DNA of 64,000 nucleotides from Thuidium tamariscinum. Its lineage: Eukaryota; Streptophyta; Bryopsida; Hypnales; Thuidiaceae. The notes under the pieces were generated by a model that worked only from the letters and a program-made list of their open reading frames with translations, did not search any database and was not told where the DNA came from. The stretch is from contig OX344758.2 of NCBI GenBank assembly GCA_947034885.2, positions 8,620,501 through 8,684,500 of the forward strand, given 5' to 3'. Position numbers and translations under genes: made by a program. Shown one piece after another: positions 10,201 through 54,728 of the stretch (its first letter is position 1; every line of letters begins with the position of its first letter).

Positions 10201-10786
10201 GAACCCCCTCCAAAAAAATTTGAGCTAAAATTTGAAAAAAATGGTCTCTTAGTAGACTTATAGCTATAGTCTAAAGGAATTTTAAAAATACTTATTTTTA
10301 TATGGTGTAGAAGTCCACAAAGATAGCTTCTTTCTACTCATGTTCTTATGTCAAGGATGATGTCTGCCACAACATCAAGCTGTTGTGGCGGACATCATCC
10401 CTAATATAAAAACACAAGTTGCTACATTAAATGTCACCTAAAATCCATCACCTAAAATATGAGATTCTTATAGTAATAAAAAGTATTAAACCTACTGTAG
10501 GTTGCTTTTATTCTTATTAAATAAATACAATCCATTGCTATCAATATCTAATATTATTGTATATGGTTTCTTGTACCAAATGCCTTTGCAACTACATCCA
10601 AATTATTATTTTTATTTGAATCATATTAAGCTAATCTATTTTACACTCAAGTGGATCTTGTGTTGTATTAAATTGGGATCCCTAATTAAGTAGTTAGTTC
10701 TACATAGCTAATTATTAGTTCTATTTGAAGGTAATTATTTTTATTTGAAATGAAAATAAAATAGTGCTATTAGTTCATTTTAACTA
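7241..10786. other. Spacer with simple repeats, no gene recognised
   Basis: This stretch holds an ATGA-type microsatellite (about 7716-7745), GGAGGGAGG-rich repeats (8070-8190), and otherwise AT-rich DNA. A frame around 9061-9384 has a serine/proline-rich stretch but no family motif. The foldback near 10355-10400 is listed separately. Confidence 0.4.
10318..10440. repeat. Foldback hairpin (20 bp stem, 6 nt loop)
   Basis: GGATGATGTCTGCCACAACA (10355-10374) pairs with 10381-10400, with one mismatch across a 6-base loop. Weaker pairing continues outward for about 18 bp. The flanking words (TTAAATGTCACCTAAAA) recur in inverted form near 41870-41890, so this may be a small foldback-element family. 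Confidence 0.6.
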
Positions 10787-10818
10787 ATATTTAACTAATC
10801 ATGGACAAATCCATAGTC
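10787..10818 (+). repeat. Left terminal inverted repeat
   Basis: A 22 bp outer block (10787-10808) matches the inverse of 23889-23910 with one mismatch. The inner 18 bp, ATGGACAAATCCATAGTC (10801-10818), matches the inverse of 23860-23877 with one mismatch. The TTAACTAAT word is also directly repeated just outside (10780-10788). Confidence 0.75.
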
Positions 10819-11205
10819 CAGAAATAAATCGGCCGTTAGCCGATATAGTCGAATGCATAGTTTTGTGTGCCACAAGCAATGAACCAAAATGGCTGCAAGC
10901 ACTAAAGAAACCAAAGTATCACAACACCTGGCCCATAAAAGAGTTGAGAGATAATAGTTTATGAACTTTTATTGTTAAATAAACACGTGTGTTGTGTCCT
11001 AATTTGTGACAAAGTATCGGCTGGCGCCTGATACTGGCAGCCGATTCCTAACATCACACACTAGAGCACCTAGACCTCTGAAAGTGTCCTAAGTGCGTAA
11101 AGTGCTACGGCATTCATTTGTAAGATGAAGCGCGACAAATTGTCGACCTTAAATCCTAAACCCTAGTCCATCCGACCCAAGTAATAAAATCGTGCGTATC
11201 AGCAG

Positions 11206-11378
11206 TCAGCCGATATCCCCCCCGAAAACTCCAGAGAGCAGGTCCTGTAGTGAAGAGGCAATGGACTCGATAGGACTGGCTCTGAAATGAGTTGTTCCAA
11301 TTTCTGAAAAAGGGTCTTCTGGCCTCCCCGATTCCACTGCTGTTGTATCGGCTGGCGGCCGACACAATGTTTGCTGAA
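11206..11378 (-). other. Possible 3'-terminal exon of the minus-strand unit
   Basis: A reverse-strand frame (about 11206-11324) could be spliced from a GT at about 11383 across the palindrome at 11346. The encoded peptide (for example PIESIASSLQDLLSGVFGG) looks amphipathic, but the phase does not join cleanly and no family is recognisable. Weak. Confidence 0.2.
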
Positions 11379-12029
11379 TCACCAGAATATCCCCTGCCAA
11401 TTCGGCTTTCCATACTTGATAGATTGTGCAACCTCATAGTGCAGTTGTCCCGGTCTCTGTGCGCCTTTGATGTATTCTGAGACTGATTGATATTGGTGCA
11501 TTGGATAAATGAATGGAATAATATCATTTGAAATGTTTGGAATAACTCTACTAGTGTTTGGGAAATTGAGATCTCCCTTGAATGGTCTCGGAATATAGCA
11601 CGCCGTATCCGGCGTCCTTCTGAGCGCAAGCGGGCACACATCGACGATGAGCACTTGGTCCGTGAAGCATGTAATCCTGGATGGTCTCTTAGTATGTAGT
11701 ATTGAGAGCATTTTGTAGCACCACGGGAACTTGAGGCTATCTACACAATACTCTCTGCCATAAACGAATGCTATGTTGTCTCTGATTTGTTTTGGAAGCA
11801 AGTGCGCAAGCAGAGGCCTAAGCTGAAGTATTGGCAACCTTGACCAAATTCCTACGTGAAACTTTTGAAACAATGTGCTGAACATATGAACTAGCCCAGG
11901 CCTTTTAATGACGTTTCTGTGTGGGTCTACCTTGTCCACCTTGATATTCGGGTCGAGATAACAAAGTAGTCCCGTGACTCCTAGAACCACACATTTCTTG
12001 AAGGACTGTGTATGGCCCACGTTGGACTC
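11379..12029 (-). CDS. FCP1/NIF-type phosphatase-like domain, catalytically degenerate (copy B)
   Basis: The open exon begins after a good acceptor (TTCTATTCAG) at 12029. It resembles the plant subgroup of FCP1-homology (HAD) proteins. The strand carrying the nucleophile reads VVLGVTGLL, where family members carry DxDGT, or DLNGLL in a related plant subgroup, so the catalytic Asp is replaced by Gly. Next come KRPGLVHMF, then VGIWSRLPILQLRPLLAHLL and a GREYC segment. The late Asp motif survives as VLIVDVCP. The frame stops at TGA 11379, or possibly splices onward. It is a diverged paralogue of the copy at 12494-13335 and may be its downstream exon, since the phases agree (0/0) if the TAG at 12494 is read through. 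A phosphatase role is unlikely; a binding role is my inference. Confidence 0.55.
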   Translation of the reverse strand, partial: ESNVGHTQSFKKCVVLGVTGLLCYLDPNIKVDKVDPHRNVIKRPGLVHMFSTLFQKFHVGIWSRLPILQLRPLLAHLLPKQIRDNIAFVYGREYCVDSLKFPWCYKMLSILHTKRPSRITCFTDQVLIVDVCPLALRRTPDTACYIPRPFKGDLNFPNTSRVIPNISNDIIPFIYPMHQYQSVSEYIKGAQRPGQLHYEVAQSIKYGKPNWQGIFW

Positions 12030-12493
12030 CTGAATAGAAGATAAGTTAGTGGACACATGACTCCACAACAAAAGCATCCGATAAGAGAAGAGCATGCATT
12101 AGGTGTCGGCCGGCAGCCGATACTAGAGCCTGACCCAATACAACAGGAAGCATTAATTGTTGAGAAAGAGACATGTGCTAGAAAGACAGTAGAGATGAGT
12201 GAGTGCTTGCCCCTACATTATTGCAATCAGTCGATTTCCAAGTCCAAGACCTAATGATGCAACTCTCAAAGGAAACATTGGAATGCTTTGAGAGTGAGCC
12301 ATGCGCACGCTTTAGAAGAACTCTGACTATAATGTCTTGATTACAAAAAAATGTTTAATCCATACAGAAGAAAAAAATGTCCCTAGAAGATTTGGTCTAT
12401 CCGTGCTGTATCTACAGAGAGTATGTACAATGTACACAAGAGTGTGTCGGCTGGCAGCCGATACACTACGCCTCCTCCATCCGTTCGCGTGGG

Positions 12494-13335
12494 CTATGCC
12501 ATTCCCAAGGCCTTTAGCTCCTCCTGTGAATATGGCACCTCGAATCCCTTCTGATAGTGCGGTGTCACATTCACGTACTGATTATGCATCGGGGTTCTCG
12601 GCATACATCGTGCAAGTCTAGTGGACGAGTTCCTCTCACAGAACTGTGCAACCGTGAGTCCCGAAGACAAGAGCCGTTCAATGAACGGGATCAGTGTCGC
12701 CTGGAGAAATGGCAGTTTTCCTGCCTTGAGTGATTTCTCCAAGTACATGGTGACGGGGGGCGGATGAATCACATTAAACGGCAGATTCAAGACGTTCCTA
12801 TATGGCTCCGAGTCCACGATCAATGAGTTGTTGATCGTGGCACCCGTATCGTACAAGGAGGATGCGCCGAGAATTCTTGCGAGACGCTTCAGAAAAATTG
12901 GTCGCGATGCATTCTGAGGGTCCCGATAAGTACTCTCGTCGCAGAACTCCTGTCCAAAGGCCAGGTAATCCTCTCCGATCTCCGGCGCCTTCCATCTAAG
13001 GCTATGGAGGCGCTGCTCGAGAGTGTTCTTGGTTAAGATTGACCAATAGACAATCACAATGTCTTGACCCTTACAGAAGAGGATGAACTCCCGGAGACCT
13101 GGTCTCTCTCTGACTGTCGACCTCTGAGTCATACTCTTCCCTTTGACAATGAGTGGCTCATAGAAAAGTAGAGTTCCCTGAACTTCAAGGAAAAGAAACA
13201 ACTTCGGAGTCGCTACCTGAGTAGGGCCAGCACTGTCGGGAGTCCGTGCTTTGTCTTGTGTTTGTTGCTGGACATTGTCATTCCCAGCTTCTGATAGGGT
13301 GTCGGAGGAATTGTCAGACTTTTGATAGTCATCAT
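12494..13335 (-). CDS. FCP1/NIF-type phosphatase-like domain, catalytically degenerate (copy A)
   Basis: The exon starts after the acceptor at 13336-13338 and runs open to a TAG at 12494. An acidic, Ser/Asp-rich leader precedes the domain. The nucleophile strand is LFLFLEVQGTLLF, with E and Q in place of the two catalytic Asp of DxDGT. ERPGLREFILFC, IVYWSILTKNTLEQRL, FGQEFC and the late motif LIVDSEPYRNVLNLPFNVI follow in the order of plant FCP1-homology proteins. It may be preceded by the ParB-like exons: donor at 13606, acceptor at 13336, phase 1 to phase 1. That join would make this a domain of one long protein rather than a separate gene. Two palindromes lie in the intervening intron. Host-gene capture is plausible. 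Confidence 0.6.
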
Positions 13336-13389
13336 CTGCATTGCCACACGAAATACATCGAACATGAGATGGTATGAACTTAGTTAGAT

Positions 13390-13463
13390 GACAAAACATT
13401 TGTGCACTATATCGGCTGGCAGTCGACAAAACATTTTTGCACTGTATCGGCTGGCAGCCGACA
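13390..13463. repeat. 35 bp tandem duplication carrying two palindromes
   Basis: The unit from ACAAAACATT through the palindrome is repeated with a 35 bp period, so two palindromes lie at 13410 and 13445. It lies in the putative intron before the FCP1-like exon. Confidence 0.75.
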
Positions 13464-13613
13464 TAGTCGAGAGGAAGTCTAGTCTGCCCCCAAAACGGCT
13501 CCTACTGACATGTCTACGCATGAGTCTGAGCCAGGCAGTTCTACTTATGAACGAACTATGTATGATACTCCACAAACATCGCGGAGCATGTCTACTGCCT
13601 ACGAACCTCCAGT

Positions 13614-16600
13614 CTACGTCCTCTTCTGAGATCGGACGGGAGACATCTCTTCGTTGGGGAAGTCCTGCGTCTGCGCCGCCGCGCCAGCGTCCTTCTCGTT
13701 TGATCTTTTCCGTTTGAAGAAGACCCGAGTTGAGCGTCGCGAGTCCGCTGACTCCGACTCCTTCTCTAGTGGTGCCCCCTTGCTCCTTCCCCGTCTTGGT
13801 TCTGGCGGAGAAGTGTCCATGGGTGTCGGCTGGCCGCCGACACGAATGTCGGCCATAGTCGCCGGTCGCCCAAGTGCAGTGACTCCCACCTGAGGCTCCG
13901 TCGCCGCGACGACCACCTGAGGCAGAGGTAGCCTGCTTATCTCCTCTGACGGTGGCTCGGCGCGCAGATCCACGACCATTGCGTGCGAGGAGTTTCTGTG
14001 TGGGAGCAGCATGGGGTGGTCTAGATCTTGAGTCGGGGGTGGATTGAGCGAAGGCCTCGGAGACGAAGGACGTTGTTGCCGTTCCCTTCGAATGAGTGTT
14101 GCTTCCGGGGAGCTCTCTGAGTCTGAGTCAGTATCAACCGTCACAAGTGGTGGTTGCTCTTGAGACTGACCCTGTGGCCGTTGAGTTTGAGCTGCGGCCC
14201 CCGGAGCCCGGGGCAGAACGAGGGTGGACAACGGCCGCGGTTGCTGAGGAGATTGCGCCCGTGCCGGTTGCCCCTCGTGGTCTGTCACCGCCAGCGTCAC
14301 CTGAGAAGGTCCCAGGGCATCCGAGGAGAGGAGGTTCATTCCCCTGACACGTTCCTTGGCCTTCTCCAATCCCTCCTCCTCCCGAACGAATTCCATGACA
14401 GCTTGTCCATTCCTCTGCAAAGCCATGGAGTGCAAGTCAGCCATCAATTGTATCGGCTAGCAGCCGACAGAAAGTGACTTCCTGAGAACAATGCAAGTGT
14501 GAGGATGGGACACGAAAACGTACCAGAGCGATCTCCGTGATGTTACCGCCACCCCAGATGTTGATGACTGTGGCATCCTTGGCCTTGAGGGTGGGTAGCA
14601 TGAGTTTCTCGAGCAGCCCATGGCCGACCCCGCACATCCCGCCATTCCAGTCGACCTCCCCCTCGACGTCGAAATTGAACAAGTCGAGCGCCTTGTGGAC
14701 CCCAGTGAAGCGCTTGAAGACCGGGAAAACACTGAGCCTGTCCTCGGGCTTCGGGAAGGTCAAGGAGAGAGTAACCAGAGGCCTGGACTCAATCTCTGCC
14801 TTCAGAAAGCCTCCCCGGGGAGATGGCTGGTAGTACACCGCATGGTAGTACCAGTCGGTGGAGGATGAGTTCGCGGCCGAGGCGACTGAATCCCTGAACC
14901 GCGAGTTTCCGATGAGGAGCATTGGCAGGGGGATGTAAGGGTCCCTATCTTCATCAACTTCCCCGTCGGAAATTTCAGCTGCCAACGATAGATCGAGCAG
15001 CTCGTTCCTGTTCACCGCTAGAGCTTCCCCCATTTCTGTATACCCGAAAACGACGAGGAATTTCTTGTCCTCGGGTTCCAGCTTCATCGTCCCCTTCGAT
15101 TGGCGAACGAAGTCCACCACCTCTACAATACTGTCCCCGACATGGCATTCGTATTGCAGTTCGCTTGACTTGCCTACCGTGGTAGGCACTGGGACTTTGA
15201 CGTAGCTTGCCAAAGTCGTGAAGAAGACCCCCGGCGCCTTGCCATCCGTGGACTTATCCGTGGTTGGATTCATGGGGTTGACTCGGCCCTTCAACCAGTT
15301 GCTTGCGTCCGTGAACTTCATCATGTCCTTCCAGACATTCCGGACTACGGCCGCTGAGTACCCCTCCTTTTCAGCCAGCTCCTTCCAAACCTCATCCGTA
15401 TATGGGATCCAGCCTGCGTCCTTGCAAGGAAAAGGGTACTTCTTCCTGGTCCACATGATCTCGTTCATGACGATCCTGTCGAGCTTCTTGTCCTTGCACC
15501 AGTCGAAGAGAGTGATCTTCCCTGAGGACTTGGCCTTGGCGGTGTTTTTGATGCTGACGCGAAGTGCCACAATCTCCCGTCCCAACTCGCACAGATCTGA
15601 ATCACGAAGCCCCAGCGTTGGCGTGAGATCCGTCTTGGTGATGTGCGTGAGCGGCTTCCGGTTGACCAGGAGATTGGGCACCGTTCCATCATCGCCAATG
15701 AGTTCGCCGTTCTCCCACGCATCGAAGACCTCCGTCCATAGCTCCCAGGTGCCCTCCTTGATGAAGATGAGTGGCAACTTGGAGGACACCTTCTCCTCCA
15801 CGAAGTGCGCCATCACCTTCAGCTTCGCAGCCTGAGTTCAACCACAATGCTTAGAACAGAGCACAAAGGTATCGGCTGGCCGTCGATACATAACGTAATG
15901 AGCAAATGCGAATAGAAAGAAAGGATGCGAGGGTAGTACCTCGAATGCTGCTGTCGGCTTGCCTCCTCCACGATGCGGCTCTGGGCATCCCGCCTTCACC
16001 CACGCCGCTCTTCCCATCTCTGCGCAGGATCTGAAGTTCTCCTTTGCCACCTTCTCAGCGATGTTGAGATTGAGGGCATTGGAGACTCTGACGAGTGTGT
16101 CCGGGTCTCTACTGAACACCGGAATCACCTCGAACTCCAGGAGGTCCGTTTTGGCTTCAGAGCCGTCGGGATATTGCTCGGCCAGTTCTCGGCAGGCCGT
16201 CACCGTGTGTTGCCCTCCAATGATGTACCAGTGGACATCCGGCGCCTTCCACCACGGCATTGAGACGCCGTTGACAACAGTGAGTTCCTCCTGCCCGGGA
16301 CACTTGTCCATCACTGCGTCCAGCCCTTTGTCCTTGGGCGTTGGAGCCCGCTTCAGTGGAACCCCATGAATTTCCGGCTTTTTCCTGATGGACCCATATC
16401 CCTTATACATGGTCTTCACCTGAAATGACAGAAGGCCAAAACATTAATGACTAGTTAGACATGTCGGCTGCCAGCCGATACAAGATATGAAATGACTTTG
16501 ATGAACGACAGATGGAAGTGATCATCCAATTACCTGTCCCAGCCGGTCCTTTGCAATCTTCCGATACTTGAGCTCGTCCGGTGCAATGTGGAGCTTGTCC

Positions 16601-17729
16601 GAGTGAATTACCCCCGGAAGACGCTGCTTCTTGTATGGAAACGCGTGCAGGAGGCCCGTCTCCAGCGCCTGGTAAATGGCGTTCACCTCGTTCTCCTTGG
16701 TCTTCGTGGTGAGGTGATTTCCACGACGGAGTGCTTCGTCCAATGTGAGCTTGAGCGGCTTCGACGGGTCATCCTTGCCCTTTCCTCTCCGCTTTGGTTT
16801 GGTCGGGGACGCTGGCTCCTCAAGATCGGCTTCAGCGACCTCAGCCACTGTCGCCGCCACCAGCTTCCTCTCCGCCGGTACCTTCTTCTTCCCCTTCTCC
16901 AGCTCCCGAGCGACGAACGCATTGTGCTCATCGCGCTCCTACTTCAGGCACTCCCACCCCTAGATGAGCTCCTCTGCAGACGACGGTGTGTTGCCGCCAA
17001 ATGTCATGCCCATGGACATGGACTTCTATCCACAGACCTCCTCCGTGCACTTGTTCACCGGCAACTCCACGGCGAAGTAGTCAAGGACTCCGACCGTGCT
17101 TGCTATTGGCATCAAGCATATCATGACATGCACGCACTCGCCAGCAGCCCTGACGGACAACACACTTCCCTTGCCAGGGGTCATGTTCCCCTTCAACTTG
17201 AAGGAGCATGCAATGTCCACTTTTTTGTCGGGTGCCTGCTTCCAGCACAGGCCCCATTCCTGGATGGCCTCGATCCCTCGCCATGTAGCTCGTGGTGGAA
17301 ACCCGTCACCCAAAATCCCAGAGTTCGGGATTTGCTCACCCAGCATTCGGGCCAACAGAGTCGGTTTCCTACAAAACAATACATTTCAATTCTCAGTAAG
17401 TTGTCACTATGTAACTCCACTTTGTGCATCTAGTGTATCGGCTGGCAGCCGATACAGCCAGTCCCTAAACCCTACCATCCCAAGTCAATTACAGATCATC
17501 GTAAGACCACTGTCCCAGATTTATATCGGCTGCCAGCCGACATCGCATGAGCTCAGGAGTTACCTGAGTGCTCCCATGTCTATCGGCTGCCAGCCGATAC
17601 AGCAACCCACAGGTGCCCCAGACTCTCAATGGCTGCACTCAAAATAATCGACAAATAATAATGTATCGGCTGGCAGCCGATACATGTAATGAAAAAGTAC
17701 CTCTCTGTTGCTAAACCGGAGGATGCCAT
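13614..17729 (-). CDS. ParB/sulfiredoxin-fold protein with disordered C-terminus (5 exons, internal TAGs)
   Basis: The exons are 17701-17729, 16534-17368, 15940-16419, 14524-15831 and 13614-14414. All join in phase across GT..AG introns, and each intron carries at least one palindrome. The conceptual length is about 1150 residues. Residues about 289-448 (exon 3) contain a ParB-like core: WYIIGGQHTVTACRELAE matches the conserved G-x-H/R loop and following helix. Exon 4 is uncharacterised; its end joined to exon 5 reads WGGGNITEIAL then RNGQAVMEF, resembling a decayed Rossmann methyltransferase motif I, as in ParB-methylase fusions (weak). Exon 5 is Pro/Gln/Ser-rich with a basic KRKR, a possible nuclear signal. 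Three in-frame TAG codons (17026, 16960, 16939) interrupt exon 2, all where Gln fits a helical context. The 13614 stop is also TAG; another in-frame TAG follows at 13599, before a TAA at 13545. DNA binding to the palindromes is inferred. Confidence 0.65.
13824..13842. repeat. In-exon palindrome encoding VGGQPT
   Basis: TGTCGGCTGGCCGCCGACA lies inside exon 5 of the ParB-like gene and is translated as VGGQPT. This is the same reading register as the two in-exon copies of the plus-strand gene. Confidence 0.7.
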
Positions 17730-17740
17730 CGCCGAAGGAC

Positions 17741-18917
17741 TGACGCTTGTCGGCTGCTCAGAAGGACTTGTCGGCTGCTGAAGAAAACTTCGGCCGCGCA
17801 CTCCTTCTTTGTCGGCTGCCCAGATACTCCTGTCGGCTGCTCCTCTGCTTTGCGTCTGGGTGTCAGCTGCAAGCTGGAAGGCAAGAGGGAGAGGGAGGGA
17901 GAGAGGGAGAGTGAGAGCAGGAGCGCAAATGGAAAATGAGAGAAAATGAAAGTGGCCTGGGGATATACCCTCGGCTGCCAGCCGAGGGGCGCAATCATGA
18001 CAAACCGAGTCCGTTCATCCTAGGATTTCATCCATCGCCGCTTTTCATCCAAGGATTTCATCCATCGCCCGGATTCCATCCGCTACCGTGTACTCCACAT
18101 CCAGCGAGGTACATGCAGGTGACGAACACTCATTGCTCAGCTGCGTACGTTTCCACCCACGATCTCTTGATGCACGGACTTGTCACTCTTGCAATCACCA
18201 CAACTTCATCCTCTTTCAGATTCAAATTTCAGGCGCCAAGTTCAGTCACAAGCATGCTCACCTAGGATTTGATCTTGGAGGACTTCATTTTCCATTTTCA
18301 TTTCCCCCCCACACACTCAGAGCGTCCAAGAACCGTGAGGGAATTGTAGTGGCCTGTTGTTTAGGAAGGATGCAACGTTAGAGAGGAAATTTAGTAGACC
18401 TCAGCCCAGTGCAGAGCTTAGGTATTCAGTAGTCCTCGGGTTCAGGAAGCGCTGAGGGACAAATGTTATTTGGCGTTCAAGCTTACGTAGGAAATGCAGT
18501 AGGATTTCAACTGCTGGGAGACAGATTTGAAGTGCAGGAGGATTTCAATTGCAGTAGGATTTCAATTGCATTTTCGAGAATTAGTTGCCTGTCAGAGGTT
18601 CTTGATTTCCTATTTGGTTGCGTTTGTGCTTCCATTTCTTGATTCAGCCTGGTCCGAGCATCTGTGGACAGTGCGTAGATTATAGGATTTGAAAAATCTA
18701 GCTTCATGCGTGATCCCCGGAGTTCCAATTGTACGGTCTTGTCCCTGTGCTAGACCGTACGGACAGTGGTATCGGCTGCCAGCCGATACCGATTTCCGTA
18801 TCTGCTAGGTCGTCAAGCATTTGATACACAAACGTATCGGCTGTCAGCCGATAAGGTCATTACGGGTTTTCCGGAAGCAGAAATTCCCAGTCTGGGTTCT
18901 CACCCCGATTTCGAATC
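17741..18917. promoter_or_regulatory. Divergent promoter region between the two transposon transcription units
   Basis: The minus-strand gene starts at 17729 and the plus-strand gene at 18918, leaving about 1.2 kb between them. The minus-proximal part has five same-orientation half-sites TGTCGGCTGC or TGTCAGCTGC (17748, 17769, 17810, 17831, 17861). These are followed by a GGGAGAGGGAGGGAGAG-type purine tract (17883-17910) and a palindrome with changed ends at 17969. Two full palindromes (18770, 18835) sit just before the plus-strand start. A hairpin GTACGGTCT..AGACCGTAC occupies 18731-18760. Short direct repeats of AGGATTTCATCCATCGCC (18021, 18052) and GCAGTAGGATTTCAA (about 18496 and 18552) also occur. 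Promoter function is inferred from layout. Confidence 0.45.
17969..17987. repeat. Palindrome with compensated ends (CCT..AGG)
   Basis: CCTCGGCTGCCAGCCGAGG keeps the core, but both outer pairs are changed so that the dyad stays perfect. The adjacent C/G also pairs. Confidence 0.75.
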
Positions 18918-21900
18918 ATGAGTGGCTCTGATGAATGGACCTCGGGTGCCAGTCCTATTGAGGCGTTCACAAGAAATGGCGGGTCCGGAAGACTGAAACT
19001 GCAAAAGGGAGTTGTTGTGGCTCTCACACTGGAAGGATTATACTACGCTGGAAGGGCGGTCGTAGAAAGGGTGGTCAGCCGCGATCCATACCTCGTGCGC
19101 GTTCATGTCCTAGATGTTCCAAACAACCTCGATATGCCTCTTCCGTTTCCGGAGGGAGACATGGTTTTCCTCAGACACTGCCCGGGAAGCTCAATCGTGT
19201 GGGAGGCAGGCAACGTTCATCCGCACGCAGACGCGGAATGGTCTTCTGCTGCTGTTGTCGGCCGGCAGCCGACACAAGTGCTCACTGATGAAAAACCCAT
19301 ACAGCAATTTCTCTCACTCACTGTCAATATGGATGTCTCACTTCTCCAGACTCTGGGCGACACTCTGTTCTATGCTGGTGTAGGGACAATTGTAGAGTGC
19401 TCCCCGAAGGGGTACTGGGGAGGCTTCCGCATTCCACACAGCTTCTTCCTCGTTGTGAAGCTCCTACACGTCGTCGATGACTTCAAGAATCACACTGCCT
19501 ATTGCGAGATTCCTGATTTCATCTCACTCAAACGTTGTGTAGGATACAAAATACTCTGGAGTGGTTACAAGGTCAGACCAATCCAATCATCTGTCCCTTT
19601 GGCCAACGTTGTCGGCTGCCAGCCGACAGGAGCACCTGCGACCAATTTCATGTAGCCTCAGATCGATGGGAACTATGAGAGTGGTGGAAGTTCGAACAAT
19701 GTGCAGATAGAACTCGGTGATCCGGGACCACAGCGGCTACTTCCTACTGCATCAGACGAAGACGAGCGAGATGATAGACTCTATTCGTCAGACGAGGACA
19801 GCCGCGGGTCTGCACACGACTAGCGCAATGTTCATGGTTACAGCACCTCTGGCACTGCCGCGTCCAACGCAAGTGTTGCTGACAGCATAGATCATTCGGA
19901 TGCGTTTAGAGATAGTACTCAGAGGGGTGACAATGCCGATCCGGTTGGAGTGCAAGATGGACTTCCAATCCCAGATAGACCGCTCTGGAGAAATCAATAC
20001 TGTCAACTTCTCAATGACGACTTCTCGGTACTGGGAAGAGCCATGATACAAGTTTGCCTACCAGATGAGGCTTGCGATGATGGCGTCCTGGGCGACACGG
20101 ATGTTGGGGTCATGTTCGTATCGGACAGTCACGAACTGCAAATGACAACCATGCGCTGGAAGCTCACACACACAAGATTGGAGGGGGGAAGGCTACTATC
20201 AGAAATTGTCACGCTTTGCTCACAGGCTGCTCTGTTGAAGGAGGCAGACGATGACGGAATGCAGGGGGTACCGAGGAATCCATACCGCTCTGTGTGTAGA
20301 AGGGTCATTCCCAAGGATCAAGAGAGCCACTCTAGGCTGCAAATCAAGACCTCGGAGGCAAAGGTACGTAAGGTCAGCTCACAGAAGTGCTGTAAGCTCA
20401 GATGCTGCCAGACCTTTCCCTAGGAGGACACCAGGTCTATACGACGAAAGTTCTTCGCTTGCACATTCGAGAGTAGGAGGGAGGTAGCGTATGCGGTGCA
20501 GAGTCAACTTCATGCAGGGAGTATTCCAGGAAAAAAATTCATCACTCTTGCTAATAGAGACATCTGCGAGAACGCATGGTATATCATTCACGGGGTATCC
20601 AGGTCGGCCTATCACGTTTACAAGGCTGCGGCCGCCGGAGGATCCGTCAACGGGTCGCATGGAAATGCGGGGGCTCGACGGCCACGGCCACAAACAATAC
20701 AAGCTCAAGCGACACTCAAAACGATCATCGATGAGAATGCAGACAAGATGCCGAATGAGTTTAGAATGGTTGGAAATAAACGCGTCGACAATCTCAAGGT
20801 CCTACCCTCTGCAATGAATTGGGATCACATACGCGAACAAGTCAATTATGTAAGTCCAACATCTGCCTCCTCGTCTACAGTATAAATGTCACTCTGTCGG
20901 TTGCCAGCCGATACATTCAAGGCTAGACTTAGAAGCGAGCAGTCATAGATCTTTCCTTTCTGTAGGACGGCACTCGCAGTTCTGTCGGCTGCCAGCCGAT
21001 ACAACTCTATCGTCTTACATGGATACTCATCCATGTAGTCATGTTCTTCAGGTCAATGGAATATGCAATATGGAGCCGGTATCCCAGTCTGCTATCAGCC
21101 GACTTCGAAATGCTCATTTCAAAAACGTAGAGGTCAAGGCAGTAGGGAGCAATTTCTCAAAATGCACAGAGTGTGACTTCCTCGTAGAGTTCATTGCAAA
21201 GTATCCCAGAGGTTGTGATGAGTGGCAGGCACTCGTCGACGACAGAGAGAGACATCTCAATTACCAGCGCGCTTGTAGAAATGTATACAGCGGATGGACC
21301 GCGCAGTCGGTGCAGAATCCATCAGAGTTCCTCTGCATTATTCATGACAAAATGGACACCACGAAGACTGCCATTCCTAGGATGCAGCGCATCACAAAGG
21401 CCACCGCAGGACTAGGACAAATTCCAATCTCTTGTACTGGAATGCTCACACATGGACATGGAGATGGTGCATACGCGCATTACTCAACATCGCTCTGGCC
21501 GGGGGATTCAAATTTCACTATTTCATCCATCTGCAGGGTACTCAGGGCCCTAGAACTACCTCCTGTAAGGGAATCAAAGATACTCTTCTCCACTCCACCG
21601 CTAAACAGCTTCTTCGAGGCTCTACTGCATGGAAAATCCAGATGCAGCTCGTCAATCCCGCAGTCATCGGACAAGGTCACAGACGCACCAACGCCAGGGC
21701 GACCTCAGGTACCACTGCCCAAAAAACTCTTCTTGCAACTCGACAATTCGGCCAAGGACAACAAGAACAGATTCCTCATGGCTTTCTGCTCACTGCTCAC
21801 TGCCAGGCGCATATTCAAGGAAGTCTCAGTCGGATTCCTTATTGTCGGACATACGCACGAGGACATTGACGCGCACTTCAGTTACCTCTCGAAACTCATC

Positions 21901-23067
21901 AAGAGGAAGAACACTTACGTTCTCGCAGATCTCATGAAGGCGTTCATGGACTCACAGAAAACGGTAGCCTTCATTCCGGAGTTCGTGCAAGAGGTGGCGG
22001 ACTTCAAATCATACTTCACAGGATTCCATCATGAGGGGGTCAACAAAATCATAGGGCTAGGAGATAAACACCTATTCAAGTTCTACGTCGTAGAGGATGG
22101 GGTCGATCGGGGATGGCCGGTCATGAGGTACAAGGTCAGGGCCACGGATTCTTCATGGCTCCCTCCTGGACCACCCGTCAAAATGTGGACAACGGATGAA
22201 AATGGGAAACCCAACATTCCTCAGGGGGAACCTCGACCTGTGCCTTTCAAGGCACTCTGGGGGAATGTAGACATTAATCCAAGAAAGAGAAACGCGGAAA
22301 AGGAAGTCGCAAGGGCCACAGAGTGCAATGAGAAACAGACATTCATTAAAAACGGAATCGCGAAATTCATTGAATTCTGGAAATCGGGAATGGCCAGAGA
22401 CAGACGATACGCACAGGAAATGACAGGTTGTGTAGCTTACTGGGAAAGAATTCAAGCAGAGATCAATTCACCGTTGCCACAAACTCCTGCGGTGCTTCAA
22501 GAAGGATTATGGCCGCTCTCGGACTGGACAAGGGATCACGCATCCACATCGTTAGACAAGGGGGCGCTCGAAAATTATTTAACGGACACCACTCCGGAGG
22601 ACGAAGGGGACCCCACTCCATACTGCGGACCTGCCAAGGACAGGCCAAGATTGAGATTCAATCCATTCAAGGATGTCCTCCTCGGAGACTTTGTGCTCTG
22701 TCGACCATGTCACAACAACCACCTGCCTGTTTGGCTGGGACGGGTACTCGAATGTGTAGACATGACTCCGGGGCCAACCTATGGAAACTTTAAAATCGAG
22801 TGGTGGACTCCCATGAAAGCAAAAAGGGAGTCCAAAGCGCTTATTGCGAGGGAGTGCTGGACTCGAAGATGGCACAAGGAACTCTGTCTTCCGCAGATGG
22901 TACATGTCAACATTGTCTTGTACTCGCACAGAATGCCCTCGCATGCAAAGAAAGGACCTCCCACGTCTCATGTCATCCCGAAGGCATCCGTTGCTGCTGC
23001 TATTGCGAATCTAGAGGCCGCGGGTGCAACTCTCGACAGAGATGCAGACGATGCCGGAGACGATTAA
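18918..23067 (+). CDS. DUF7869 transposase-like protein with N-terminal TNP1/EN/SPM-like repeats (2 exons, three internal TAGs)
   Basis: The exons are 18918-20849 and 21052-23067, joined in phase 0; conceptual length is about 1315 residues. The intron (GTAAGT..TTCAG) holds two palindromes. Residues about 28-105 and 130-225 are two related segments (LPFPEGDMVFLRHCPGSSIVW in the first) resembling the TNP1/EN/SPM-like domain. An acidic linker, a Cys-rich CCKLRCC knuckle and GKKFITLANRDICENAWYII follow. The C-terminal core has LQLDNSAKDNKNR (Asp about 875) and VGHTHEDIDAHF (His/Asp about 911-917), the hallmarks of DUF7869. This core is thought to be RNase-H-like, so a DNA-cleaving transposase role in the nucleus is likely but inferred. 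In-frame TAGs occur at 19653, 19821 and 20421; the frame stays open and conserved through the last one. The true stop is TAA. No in-frame TAA or TGA occurs within. Confidence 0.8.
19256..19274. repeat. In-exon palindrome encoding VGRQPT
   Basis: TGTCGGCCGGCAGCCGACA lies within exon 1 of the transposase-like gene, between its two N-terminal repeats. Confidence 0.75.
19610..19628. repeat. In-exon palindrome encoding VGCQPT
   Basis: TGTCGGCTGCCAGCCGACA sits directly after the second N-terminal repeat, 24 bases before the first in-frame TAG. Confidence 0.75.
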
Positions 23068-23859
23068 GGATACATCGACTCGGACTTATCGGCTGCCAGC
23101 CGATACACCATTTGTGCTCTCCAGTTATGTCATCAACACATTGCAACACGGATTCGTCTTCTCCATGCAGGTGTCGGCTGCCAGCCGATACGACGGGCTT
23201 GGCTGCATCACGGTCGCGTGGTTCGTCAGCAGAATGTTCACTTTAAGATCATTACGTGCAGGTCCTCAATGTTTACTCATTTTAGGATGTGCATTCTTAT
23301 CTTCTTCGGTGGGGCTTTATGTTATTTTACGGAAAGCCTTTATATTTCATAGGATGGCACTACAAGTCTTATGACTAGGCAATTCACATTTTACGTATTT
23401 GTCGGCTGGCTGCCGACAGGGCTAGGCGGAGGACGTTACTCTCTCAGGCGATACTTTGTCCTCGTCGGTTGTTAGATCCTTGCATTTAGCACTTGCTGCG
23501 AGTTTATGTACTTTCTTTACATATTTATCTGAATCTCCTATGGAGACCATGTTGCAACTGTTTTATCTTCAGTGCACAAACGGTGCAGGAAATTCTCTAC
23601 ATGTCATGCTCGTTGTCCTGTTTTACTCTTCTGGCGCACTTTACTTTGCTCTCTTATCGGCTGCCAGCCTATACATGTCATTGGCCACGGGATGGGTGCA
23701 CGGTTTTAGGCACCGCTTCTGATACTCCACTAAAAACGCTCCAACAGTCAACAATCCTCTCCTTTCTTATGCAACTGCTCGTTCTCAACAAGGTGTGGGT
23801 GGGCTGCCGACACTTTTCCATCATTTGAAGCGTCTTTTCTACATTCTCAGGTGGCTTGC
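23068..23859. other. Non-coding right arm of the transposon
   Basis: About 800 bp between the DUF7869 stop and the right terminal repeat. It holds five palindromes (23087, 23172, 23400, 23655, 23794), increasingly imperfect toward the end. No gene is seen; it is probably the 3' untranslated and subterminal region. Confidence 0.6.
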
Positions 23860-23910
23860 GACTATGAATTTGTCCATAATTCATGCAATTGTCCATAATT
23901 AGTTAAATAT
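23860..23910 (-). repeat. Right terminal inverted repeat with internal duplication
   Basis: Read on the minus strand it begins like the left repeat, then repeats the ATTATGGACAA word after a short spacer before the inner block. The right terminus is therefore about 19 bp longer than the left. Confidence 0.75.
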
Positions 23911-26520
23911 AGGTTTTTTCAATTGAAATTCAAATGAAGTGCATTTTTTAATCTCAATTTTGATTGAAAATATAAACAAATCGTCATTTCTATTTGACTT
24001 TGAATCACTTCCATCACATGTCTAAATGCCTAGGCTCTAGGCCTCACTTTCAACCAGTTCTAAACTATTTTTTGGCATAATCAAAGTAATGTTTATAAAA
24101 TTGAAAACTAATTATCCTTTTGTTTTATTTTTTCTCATTAAATCCATTAAAATTTCCTAATACTTTGTAGTTTTTTCTTAAGTAGTTGGTTAAGCATAAT
24201 TCAAAAGGTATAAAAAAAAAGTCTAATAAAAATTTATAATTACCTAGAGATGAGTTTGGATGCTGAGGCATGGTTAAAGAATAGCGGTCACATTGCACAT
24301 CTCCTTCCTCTTAATGGCACTTGAGCATTGCATTCTTTGTCTCTTTTCTCTTCTCTCAATCATTGCTTCTTCTTCTTAAACTCTCCGCTTACGGCTTAGC
24401 TTTCCATTATGTTTCTGGCACACTTGGATGTTCATGGCGAACCTTACGGATAGGCAACTTGCTCTCATATTTGGCATTTGTAGTGTTGCATTATAGAATA
24501 TTTTAGTCCTAATATTGGTTTTTGTGGCAAAGGTTGTCTAGTATGAGCAAACTAAAAACCTATTGGGAAAACTCAATGATTTTCTAGTCAATCTATTCCA
24601 GCAATTAGTGACAAATCTTAACAACTAATTGTTATTGGCCTACTATAGCTATAGATTGTACGCTAGTTTAGTGACAACTCTTTATCGACTAATTTGCATC
24701 TAGGTAGAATAAGAAAGTGTGATTTCACAAATTGGTGGATGCCTTCCAAGCAAGAGCAAAGGTTGATTTTGCTCAACTCTACACTGTTTGGATTCTCTCG
24801 AATTGGACACAAATCTTGACATTTTAACCAAAAAAAATTGGCTTTGTCAACTCTCAAGGGTACTTTGTGGTCTTAAACAACTACAGTGATTGATGGCAGG
24901 CCCCAATATTAGTAGGTATCTCTCAAAAGATGCAATAAACAATTGGACAAAATTGAACTACAAACAAAGAAGTGCATTTATTAATATTTGGCTTGCCATA
25001 TTTGAGATATCAGGTTCTTTTGAAGAAGGTATCAACTTTGTCCTATGCTTCTTATCAAGAATTCCTAGTTGCAATGACAAGTGTTGGACATTGTGTGTAC
25101 AAGAAGGTTACTACTACAAAGTTTAAATCTGTAATATGGAAGTAGTTGAATTCAAAAACATTGCATTTGTAGAAATGAAGTAGCCCTAATGCACACTGTA
25201 ATTTGAAAACCCATACCATAGTTTGGTCGAAACTCAAGTCAAATTCAAATTCCTCAAAACCAAATCACAAGGGGTTCGACCCTCACAAAATTGCACTTCC
25301 AAAAACTCACTTCTATCTGATACTCAAAAACATTTGTTCATAAAAAACCACAACTCAAATAAAACACACTCAAATAGTAGCTGAACTCCCCAAAATGATT
25401 GTGTTGCTTTGCCACTCAACAACACGATAGCGCCTTTGAATCATAGCAACATTTTTGCCAATCTTGTACTCAATCTTGAACTTCCTCCCTTTCAAATGCA
25501 TCCTAAGCTCATCAGCTCACTACCACTGGTCAAAATTTAGAAATCTTGGACAAACAACAATGTCTAATGTTTATTGTTTCTTCAATCCAAGCACTCCCGT
25601 TCACGGATTGTATGCCATTTGTCGTTGCCAATTGCACTAGCCTATTCTTGACACCTACCATGCCACGAATTATAATCACATCCAGGAATTCCTCTCCACC
25701 TACTACATGGAGAGCCTTTTTTTAATTCGCAGTAGCTACTTTTAGACACCCTGGATAGTGAGGAATTAAACATTTCACTAAAAGAGGACCAAAGTAGCCA
25801 AAAAAGAATGTTCACCAAAATGATGAAGTAGCCTAAGTTTTGTTGCTTGCATAAAGAAATGATCTTTTGCCTTTAAGTATATATCCTTGGATTTTCAAAA
25901 ATGTTTGTGGAAATTCAATGCATTATAATAGAGGGAATTGCAATAGGATAGAAAGCCCTCATTCCTTGAATTAATTTTAAAAATGCTCGTAGGACATGAA
26001 CAAATAACCAAAACTCCTTCTAATTCATTGAAATCCTTGTAGATAAGTGTAACTTCTCATAATGTTAAGAGCATTAGTTAGAGAATTAAAGAAAATTAAA
26101 ATTAACCGACTACAAAATAGGAGGCAAATTTTTATAATTATCCGTACTGCAACCTTTAAATATAACATTCTTAATTGAATTCTTTGCAACCCTTCTTAAA
26201 TACCTTCTTAGATACTTGATTGGCAATATATAGTAAGACTCAAATTACAATATCAATATAAATTTCTATTTCTATTTCTATATCTATCTCTATCCTATCT
26301 CCATATGATTGCAAGATACCTAATTGTCAGTTAGTCAAGAAGAAACTCTATACTAAAGACTAATAATAACATAGAATGATGGGGTTGAAATTTGACCTAC
26401 CAAATACTCCTTAATTAATTAAAGTTGGAAAATGTGCTAGACATGTAGTTTTAAAATAGGAAGATTTACTTGAAGCACATAAAACAAATTATTGAAAAAA
26501 TGATGCCCCAAATTCCCATT
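23911..26520. other. AT-rich spacer
   Basis: No gene recognised. It contains a short CTATTT/CTATCT microsatellite (26259-26305). Nothing else has clear structure. Confidence 0.4.
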
Positions 26521-53084: not shown

Positions 53085-53372
53085 TAGATGGTCGCTTCTT
53101 CTCAGGGATGCTGAGCTGGCTCCGGACCTATGTGGCGGATGACATGGCTCCCACAACCGAGCCTCTCCGTATTCCTGGTGGGGACTCCTCCTCCCTGACT
53201 CCCTCTCTCCGTCCCCAATGCTTCGTGGAGTTCGATTTTGACTGCCATCTGGTTTCCTCCCGAAGATGCTGTTTGTAACAATTGCAGGCTATTGAGACCC
53301 CAAAATGTGAAGCACCAATTCCACTTGGGAGTTCGATTGCTCGCTTCTCGCGGGTGGGGCCGAAGGGCTTTG

Positions 53373-54728
53373 ATGCAGTCGGGACTGCAGGTTTTGTTCC
53401 AGGTGTATGAGTCCTTCCTCGGGGAGATCATGTCGCCGTCCTCTTCCTCCCAGAGCTCCAGCAGCAGCTATGCCGCTTCGGTGGGCGTCGGGGTGGCCGT
53501 CACCGCCGTGGCGGGCGTGGCGGTCGCCGCAGCCGTGGGTGGATTGATCTACTACAACGACGGCAAGCTTCCGTTCTTCGATCTCCCATTCTCCACGCGA
53601 CGCCACCACTCGCCTTTACTCGCGGAGCAATGGATCGCCTCCTTTGACTCAGAGGAAGGAACCTTGCTTGATACTCGGTTCATCCACAAGGTCCGTGGGG
53701 GAGGTATTGAGCCCGCGATTCGTTCTCAGGTATGGCCGTTTCTTCTGGGAGTTTACGACTTAGACAGCAAGTCCGCGGAGCGCGAGGTCGTGAGGCTGAC
53801 GAAGAGCGAGGAGTACGGGGAGCTTCGATCGCAGTGCGTGAAAGCCGCCGAAACCCTAATCCAAAACCCTAACGACGACGAAGAAGAGGAGGATTTCACC
53901 AAGGTGGATGCTTTGGGGGCGATCCCGAAGGAGGAAGAGGACTTCCGCACATGGCAGCGGATCATTCGATTAGACGCGGTCCGGATGAACGCCGAGTGGA
54001 TCCCGTATGCGGAGACGCAAGCCTCGGTAACGTTTGAGGAAGCCGCGCGGCTTTCAAAAGCCGCGGGATTGATGGACGACGACCATCTGGAACCGCCGCG
54101 CAGACACCACGCCGCAAGGCTTGTGCTGATTTTGGAAGCTTACACGATGCATGACCCCGAGACGGGATACTGTCAAGGGATGAGTGACTTGCTGTCGCCC
54201 TTTGTGGCGTTGATCGACGACGATTACGAGGCGTTTTGGTGTTTCGTGAAATTCATGGAGTTTGCGCGTCATAATTTCCGCTTGGACGAAATAGGGATTC
54301 GGCGGCAGCTCAACTTGGTGAGCTCCATCATTCAGGCGTCGGATCCGGCGCTGTTTCAGCATCTGGGAACCCTAGGGTGTGAGGATTGTACATTTATTTA
54401 CCGCATGGTGGTCGTACTTATGCGACGCGAGCTCAGCTTTGAACAGACGCTTTGTTTGTGGGAGGTCATGTGGGCCGATTGGGCGGCCATTGATAACAAA
54501 TGCGTTGAGAGGCGGGACAGATTAGGGCCTCCCTCACGGGACTTGCTTCTGTACGTGATTGCAGCTGCCGTGCGGAAGAAGAGACGGAACATTTTGCATT
54601 ATAGTGGCATGGATGAGCTGGTCAGGGAGTGCAATGGCATGGCTGGGAATCTGGATATCTGGGAGCTTCTGGCAGATGCGAGAGAGCTGGTGCGGTGTGT
54701 GCAGGTTGAAGCCACCAAGAGGGATTAA
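53373..54728 (+). CDS. TBC-domain Rab GTPase-activating protein, single exon (451 aa)
   Basis: 53373 is the first in-frame ATG. A second at 53430 (MSPSSSSQ) is equally plausible and would give 432 residues. A Ser-rich start and a hydrophobic Ala/Val/Gly segment (VGVGVAVTAVAGVAVAAAVGGLIYY) suggest a membrane anchor. The TBC domain follows: GIEPAIRSQVWPFLLGVYDL, then the arginine finger IRLDAVR (Arg about 204) and the glutamine finger YCQGM (Gln about 268), so GAP activity should be retained. Later motifs include FWCFVKFM and FEQTLCLWEVMWAD. It resembles plant TBC15/Gyp7-like proteins, which accelerate GTP hydrolysis by Rab proteins in vesicle traffic. The Rab partner is unknown. It ends in TAA, with no introns in the coding part. 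Confidence 0.93.
   Translation: MQSGLQVLFQVYESFLGEIMSPSSSSQSSSSSYAASVGVGVAVTAVAGVAVAAAVGGLIYYNDGKLPFFDLPFSTRRHHSPLLAEQWIASFDSEEGTLLDTRFIHKVRGGGIEPAIRSQVWPFLLGVYDLDSKSAEREVVRLTKSEEYGELRSQCVKAAETLIQNPNDDEEEEDFTKVDALGAIPKEEEDFRTWQRIIRLDAVRMNAEWIPYAETQASVTFEEAARLSKAAGLMDDDHLEPPRRHHAARLVLILEAYTMHDPETGYCQGMSDLLSPFVALIDDDYEAFWCFVKFMEFARHNFRLDEIGIRRQLNLVSSIIQASDPALFQHLGTLGCEDCTFIYRMVVVLMRRELSFEQTLCLWEVMWADWAAIDNKCVERRDRLGPPSRDLLLYVIAAAVRKKRRNILHYSGMDELVRECNGMAGNLDIWELLADARELVRCVQVEATKRD

Follow-up and report, generated by a model that had tools for sequence, protein, structure and literature searches.

VirB of Shigella is a member of the ParB superfamily. It offsets transcriptional silencing, according to the part of the literature consulted. 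VANDAL transposons are Mutator-like elements. In Arabidopsis, the VANC proteins that they encode bind family-specific motifs in non-coding parts and cause a loss of methylation (PMC5735166, available sections). In the literature we searched, VANC is the one worked-out plant example of a transposon that recognizes itself against host silencing. A second relevant system is Sola1-1_Ec32 of Ectocarpus, a 21.5-kilobase (kb) element with a 1,104-amino-acid ParB-like gene opposite its transposase; the protein combines ParB and a DNA methyltransferase (PMC12477816, available sections). Here we describe a transposon of the moss Thuidium tamariscinum in which a transposase gene (T) diverges from a gene with a ParB-like motif (A) and in which one palindrome recurs along the whole body. 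It lies in a stretch of 64,000 nucleotides that we call the window (C10:8620501-8684500; contig OX344758.2 of assembly GCA_947034885.2), and positions given without a contig are those of the window. The explanation that we consider best, and somewhat probable, is that it is a cut-and-paste transposon with built-in self-recognition, in which the ParB-like protein A reads the palindromes.

A multi-copy transposon with a DDE-type transposase

The element is a mobile DNA transposon with terminal inverted repeats and has dozens of copies in the genome. We searched all 363,211,507 bases (19 contigs) with the first 614 and the last 501 bases of the element. The left-end query found 46 candidates, of which 40 are scored matches (80-100% identity), and the right-end query found 49, of which 40 are main matches. 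For 37 of the 40 scored left ends, the same strand has a right end no more than 100 kb downstream; for the other three, no right end was found. Most of the paired ends (25 of 37) span 13.0-13.9 kb, and the other 12 span 16.9-66.4 kb (for example, C1:43523144-43589497). Pairs of over 14 kb are probably nested insertions, because some of them keep matching duplications (L038/L039, 30 kb; L042/L043, 64 kb). The duplications of another long pair, L050/L051 (51 kb), do not match.

The copy in the window runs from 10782 to 23915 (13,134 base pairs, bp) and is flanked by inverted repeats of 33 nucleotides that are 85% complementary and are the same across the copies read. Comparison of the copies moved each end outward by five bases (AACTAA...AGGTT), and it replaced a TA or ATAT duplication, which had been guessed by eye from the window alone, with the 4 bp just outside AACTAA/AGGTT. 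Among the 29 copies with both ends readable, 27 have an exact 4-bp target duplication, and the left 4-mers include 28 distinct sequences. None of the 29 has a duplication of 5-9 bp, and copy-by-copy inspection of longer lengths, up to 12 bp, showed no match either. (Copies c01 and c03 were excluded from this count and from the element alignment, since the sequence retrieved for them did not show the right-end motif.) The 12 copies that we compared align from end to end, with palindromes at shared positions. Among the nine young copies, identity is 96.6-99.0%; three older copies are 89-94% identical to those. The GC content is 0.44-0.59 between 11 and 23.5 kb and 0.29-0.36 in the kilobases adjoining the block. 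An earlier note, made from the letters of the window alone, had read inverted termini, a GC-richer body in AT-rich DNA, and a single mobile unit from this one copy, and it had proposed a search for further full-length copies with a consistent duplication. The termini and the GC step are confirmed, and the single mobile unit is supported by the shared ends, the end-to-end alignment, and the 4-bp duplication. The outcome that the note had named as a refutation, such as no other copy with the same termini, did not occur.

The earlier note also described divergent, multi-exon genes, and our models agree. Protein T has 1,315 amino acids, and protein A, which is encoded divergently from T, has 1,150. 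Both models were built from open frames, GT-AG junctions, and codon-position bias rather than from transcripts (the codon-position count excludes copies c09 and c10). Coding constraint acts on both genes. The window copy is degraded: T has three in-frame stops, and A has four, of which three are in exon 2 and the other lies close to the end of the gene. A pattern-based assembly across the 12 copies did not assemble gene A in seven of them or gene T in three.

T carries a DDE-type catalytic core with an RNase H fold. The core has a DUF7869 domain (Pfam, expectation value (E) 1.3e-40). A Foldseek search with T found no match at E 0.001 and a search of solved structures with the exon-2 frame found none, while a second structure comparison with T did return transposases. 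The C-terminal part of T scores 5.3-5.7 against BAH domains and equally high, 5.2-5.6, against MazF folds. The closest named homologues of T are from Physcomitrium patens (66% identity) and Ceratodon purpureus (64-67%), over most of the searched part; they are labeled only as DUF7869 or hypothetical proteins, and the domain is detected in two moss homologues, P0002 and P0004. No paper in the literature we searched, in a library without most subscription journals, names DUF7869. With T, a domain without a stated function gains a supported role as the core of a DDE transposase. The near-identical copies suggest that T is active in cut-and-paste transposition.

Palindromes in the element and in a related family

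Allowing at most one mismatch, the palindrome TCGGCNGNCNGCCGA occurs at 26 sites in the window, and all of them lie within the element (10829-23671), which is as confined as the earlier note had claimed. Shuffled sequence has a mean of 0.01 sites, so we rejected a chance origin. Genome-wide, the exact pattern occurs at 540 places, versus 0 for the reversed control, and among the matches listed, the exact palindromes fall inside three copies on C1. About 60 kb of sequence flanking nine copies contains no sites. At 24 positions, the exact pattern is present in the majority of the young copies.

The palindromes avoid coding sequence, which holds three of the 26 sites in 57% of the length. Introns hold seven sites in 5.5% of the length, with at least one in each of the five modelled introns. 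Several sites lie between the divergent genes, and four lie downstream of T. The terminal repeats carry a different sequence. Two palindromes are held by a tandem pair of 35 bp (13390-13459).

To compare A with its relatives, we began with public proteins, using residues 1-927 as the query (that is, without most of exon 5). Among 7,991 scored candidates, the only match at E 0.001 was P0001 (from ENA), at 66% identity over 26% of the query. P0001 reads through the counterparts of A introns 2 and 3, and there it holds three peptides that correspond to the three frames of the palindrome, which suggests that these sites are conserved. In the moss genome itself, exon 4 of A has 86 matches, some of them to relatives with 38-49% or 24-30% identity, and T has at least 69, among which are groups with 49-53% and 60-80% identity (66 of 751 candidates were scored for T).

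For 14 distant T loci, we looked for partners among the A matches below 50% identity, using 26 of the 27 rows. Nine of the 14 have an A-like match 10-31 kb away on the other strand, and the two genes diverge as in the window; the other five have no A-like partner within 60 kb. The recurrence of the divergent pair suggests that the ParB-like gene is a core partner of the transposase. In this respect, the earlier note's idea of captured or accessory genes is partly wrong.

A second palindrome is found in a related family, which we call family 2. In three stretches from the group at 24% identity, ATCGGGAGATCTCCCGAT (at most three mismatches) occurs 10 times (L076), six times (L077), and twice (L078). 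It does not occur in the window or in 100 plain shuffles of L076, and the window's palindrome does not occur in any of the three stretches with up to two mismatches. In the stretches read, the two palindromes exclude each other. The outer ATCGG...CCGAT is common to both; their central bases differ. In L076 and L077, the family-2 palindromes occupy both the interval from the ParB-like segment to exon 4 and the sequence after exon 4; in L078, they occupy only the latter. Some form tandem arrays (76 bp in L076 and 59 bp in L077), and two are in frame in the tail of L076. In L076, the one relative stretch that is long enough, a NIF gene (E 4e-16) follows A, which matches the gene order of the window. 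Upstream of its ParB-like exons, this family-2 stretch has an AT-rich segment (L076:2536-3178) with a tandem repeat of about 49 bp.

Features of the element in window positions, with the basis for each.
Feature	Position	Strand	Basis
Target-site duplication TTTT, left copy	10778..10781		copy comparison
Left terminal inverted repeat, starts AACTAATATTTAACTAAT	10782..10814	+	common to copies read
NIF/FCP1-like phosphatase domain block (PF03031)	11379..12098	-	Pfam, E 5e-7
FCP1/HAD-like coding block, LFLFLEVQGTLL...	12494..13342	-	tblastn to family-2 NIF-like gene, 25% identity, E 1.3e-14
A exon 5, low-complexity tail, in-frame palindrome at 13826	13599..14414	-	end computed from 1,150-residue length
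A exon 4	14524..15831	-	homology to genome relatives
A exon 3, ParB-like motif YIIGGQHTVTACRELAEQYPD	15940..16419	-	motif comparison
A exon 2, three stops in window copy	16534..17368	-	open frames, splice signals
A intron 1	17369-17563	-	re-read junctions
A exon 1, proposed start ATGGGAGCACTCAG	17564..17577	-	splice signals read, no transcript
T exon 1, three stops in window copy, intact in copy C1:23429221-23442349	18918..20849	+	
T intron (GTAAGT...TTCAG), palindromes at 20897 and 20985	20850..21051	+	splice signals
T exon 2, encoding the DUF7869-containing DDE core and a BAH-like C-terminal part	21052..23067	+	Pfam, predicted model, structure comparison, 34-sequence alignment
Right terminal inverted repeat, ends ATTAGTTAAATATAGGTT	23883..23915	-	copy comparison
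Target-site duplication TTTT, right copy	23916..23919		copy comparison
26 palindromes, consensus TGTRTCGGCTGSCAGCCGAYACA	10829..23671		pattern scan
Palindromes 1-13, starts of 15-bp core	10829 11199 11348 12106 12447 13412 13447 13826 14453 15872 16464 17438 17526		
Palindromes 14-26, starts of 15-bp core	17583 17666 17971 18772 18837 19258 19612 20897 20985 23089 23174 23402 23657		

The block at 12494..13342 has no Pfam match on its own. Our guess is that the FCP1-like protein may act on the phosphorylation of RNA polymerase II. The window has further GC-rich stretches at about 6-8 kb and 53-55 kb. A plus-strand frame with a RabGAP-TBC domain (53199-54725; E 1.5e-30) lies outside the element and is probably an ordinary host gene.

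Possible readers of the palindromes

In the mechanism that we propose, T is a DUF7869-type DDE transposase that would move the element and make the 4-bp target duplications. A would bind the family-specific palindrome TGTRTCGGCTGSCAGCCGAYACA about 25 times along the element, as ParB binds parS. With so many sites occupied, the element would be coated or bridged and thereby either kept open (anti-silencing, as for VANC and VANDAL) or marked as self. Such numerous and scattered sites fit a protein whose task is to mark or coat the whole element better than one that pairs two ends. That A, and not another protein, binds the palindromes, and that the outcome is anti-silencing, are steps that we infer. 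If A does bind, we put anti-silencing or self-marking first, although this is roughly an even call. A broader proposal is more tentative, and we doubt it more than we believe it: a eukaryotic address system resembling ParB-parS, in which each family has its own palindromic address, placed element-wide and in introns, and a co-evolving ParB-like protein reads it on the family's own copies only.

The likeness of A to ParB is at the level of a motif and is weak. On the positive side, the ParB-like segment of family 2 matches phrog_723, a ParB-like partition protein (E 0.041), and this match is independent of the choice of phage proteins. Searching 50,697 phage records with exon 3 (tblastn, E up to 10) gave 11 records from five phages, at E 2-10; five of the 11 (from three of the five phages) are labeled ParB-like and match at or near the motif YIIGGQHTV. 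A profile comparison with three phage proteins aligned IIGGQHTVTACRELAEQYPD to LAGNHTLMAIRDLAEQYPD-type sequence over 23 columns (P 1.6e-4, probability 50%).

Several observations weigh against A as a ParB-like reader of palindromes. Pfam has no match, to ParB or otherwise, for A residues 1-927 or for its exons singly, and NCBIfam has none for exon 3 or P0001. Against PHROG profiles, exon 3 matched only one of unknown function (E 0.013). The phage matches are at high E, and six of the 11 records lack the ParB-like label; the family-2 segment matched four phage records, none of which is labeled ParB. The P value of the profile comparison is flattering because the phage proteins were picked for that motif match. 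The predicted model for exon 3 is poor (pLDDT, a model-confidence score, of 57) and matched no ParB and nothing in the PDB. (A search of solved structures with A1 gave one match, to dihydrofolate reductase, at E 0.52.) In terms of the loci, 14 of 23 distant A-like loci, by a hand count from the match tables, have no partner among the scored T matches. Family 2 is known from three partial stretches, of which L078 has two sites and L077 has no scored T partner. As for the sites, palindromes in the old copies decay about as fast as the remaining sequence, and selection on single sites is therefore unsupported. Three palindromes are in frame in coding sequence (two in T exon 1 and one in A exon 5), where they read as VGRQPT, VGCQPT, and VGGQPT (18918-20849 and 13599-14414). 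Of the domain mix in the earlier note, then, DUF7869 and the FCP1-like phosphatase stand on Pfam matches, and the ParB-like label on the motif.

The phage ParB-like relatives that we used as a yardstick (L081:1162-1425, L079:1344-1860, and L080:630-1455) adjoin genes of DNA-modification type, which are annotated as a Tet-like J-binding protein or as a queuine tRNA-ribosyltransferase.

Many transposases bind repeated sites near their ends. The palindromes might thus be internal loading or regulatory sites of T itself, with A doing something else, but we think this unlikely. In favor of this, T likewise diverges between the two families (49-53% identity), so that a change of palindrome goes along with a change of T too. 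However, these sites occur throughout the body, including all five modelled introns, the end repeats differ from them in sequence, and the ParB-like motif makes A a natural candidate for binding a palindrome. We rank A above T as the recognizer.

Alternatively, the palindromes could serve expression, as splicing signals in introns or as sites for a host transcription or chromatin factor that the element recruits. There are one or two sites in every modelled intron of A and T and several between the divergent genes, and sites or palindrome-derived peptides recur between corresponding exons in P0001 and family 2. Avoidance of coding sequence would give the same intron enrichment, however, and three sites are in coding sequence and four are downstream of T. 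Also, the two related families reside in one genome, and for a host factor it would be odd that their palindromes differ. We consider a role in expression improbable.

It is more improbable still that A is a relative of ParB-methyltransferase proteins and that the palindromes, which contain CpG, are its modification targets. The phage proteins that share the motif do match phrog_498, which is labeled as a DNA methyltransferase, but Pfam finds no methyltransferase domain in the parts of A that were searched. Nor is the decay of methylated CpG concentrated in the palindromes of the three old copies (0.07-0.12 inside versus 0.09-0.15 outside). The young copy c09 is an exception in the opposite direction (0.077 inside, or 8 of 104, versus 0.033 outside, or 42 of 1286).

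Finally, functionless mini-repeats that spread by mobility or slippage, like the palindromic repeats that invade genes, would account for the short tandem arrays (the 35-bp pair and those in L076 and L077) and the in-frame sites, but they are very improbable, as positions are common to the copies (which also disfavors mobile inserts), the 60 kb of flanks has no sites, and palindrome peptides occur in the same introns of the 66% homologue.

Comparison with known systems

Target duplications are usually 8-11 bp for KDZ, hAT, and MULE transposons and 3 bp for CACTA and Harbinger. For Sola they are usually 4 bp, and in Sola1 they have no fixed sequence. The duplications argue against KDZ, hAT, and MULE, as 8- or 9-bp duplications were found in none of the 29 copies, and against CACTA and Harbinger, as a 3-bp match was found in just two, both within TTTT sites. 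Kolobok and piggyBac follow a TTAA rule (PMC9587614, available sections), and none of our 27 matching duplications is TTAA. (Copy c01, for which no right end was read, has TTAA on its left side.) The varied 4-bp duplication of the element is as in Sola1. For the earlier note's statement that the element resembles no standard superfamily, the varied duplication speaks in favor as regards hAT, MULE, KDZ, and CACTA, by their usual lengths, but Sola1 shares a ParB-like gene on the opposite strand. Membership in Sola1 is possible; the likeness is one of duplication and gene layout.

Like Sola1-1_Ec32, the element is a large DNA transposon with a ParB-like gene on the strand opposite the transposase. 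Unlike the Sola1-1_Ec32 protein, A has no methyltransferase that Pfam detects in residues 1-927 or in single exons, and the available part of that account mentions no palindromes (PMC12477816).

As in bacterial ParB-parS systems, a protein with a ParB-type motif occurs together with palindromic sites. The element differs in having about 25 sites on 13 kb and in that A lacks a Pfam ParB match; we recognized no ParA-like gene on it, though no search was aimed at ParA.

The likeness to VANDAL and VANC of Arabidopsis is in an element-encoded protein and a short family-specific motif that is mainly non-coding, including in introns (PMC5735166, available sections). Within the two families that we read, the palindrome is indeed family-specific and enriched in non-coding parts, and VANC motifs likewise vary between related families (PMC5735166). 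The VANC21 motif, YAGTATTAY, has one orientation and is often in tandem (PMC5735166), whereas here the motif is a palindrome and occurs mostly as single copies. Binding by VANC21 and the loss of methylation were shown by experiment (PMC5735166), whereas the moss system is known from sequence. If our explanation is true, this would be an independent system of self-recognition built on a DNA-binding module of prokaryotic type, with very specific, countable sites and two readable families in one genome. The co-evolution of address and reader would then be testable in a moss, and there would be a reason for the ParB-like genes in algal transposons. A ParB-like gene opposite a transposase was already known from Sola1 in Ectocarpus; judging by the literature we searched, the family-specific palindromes appear to be new.

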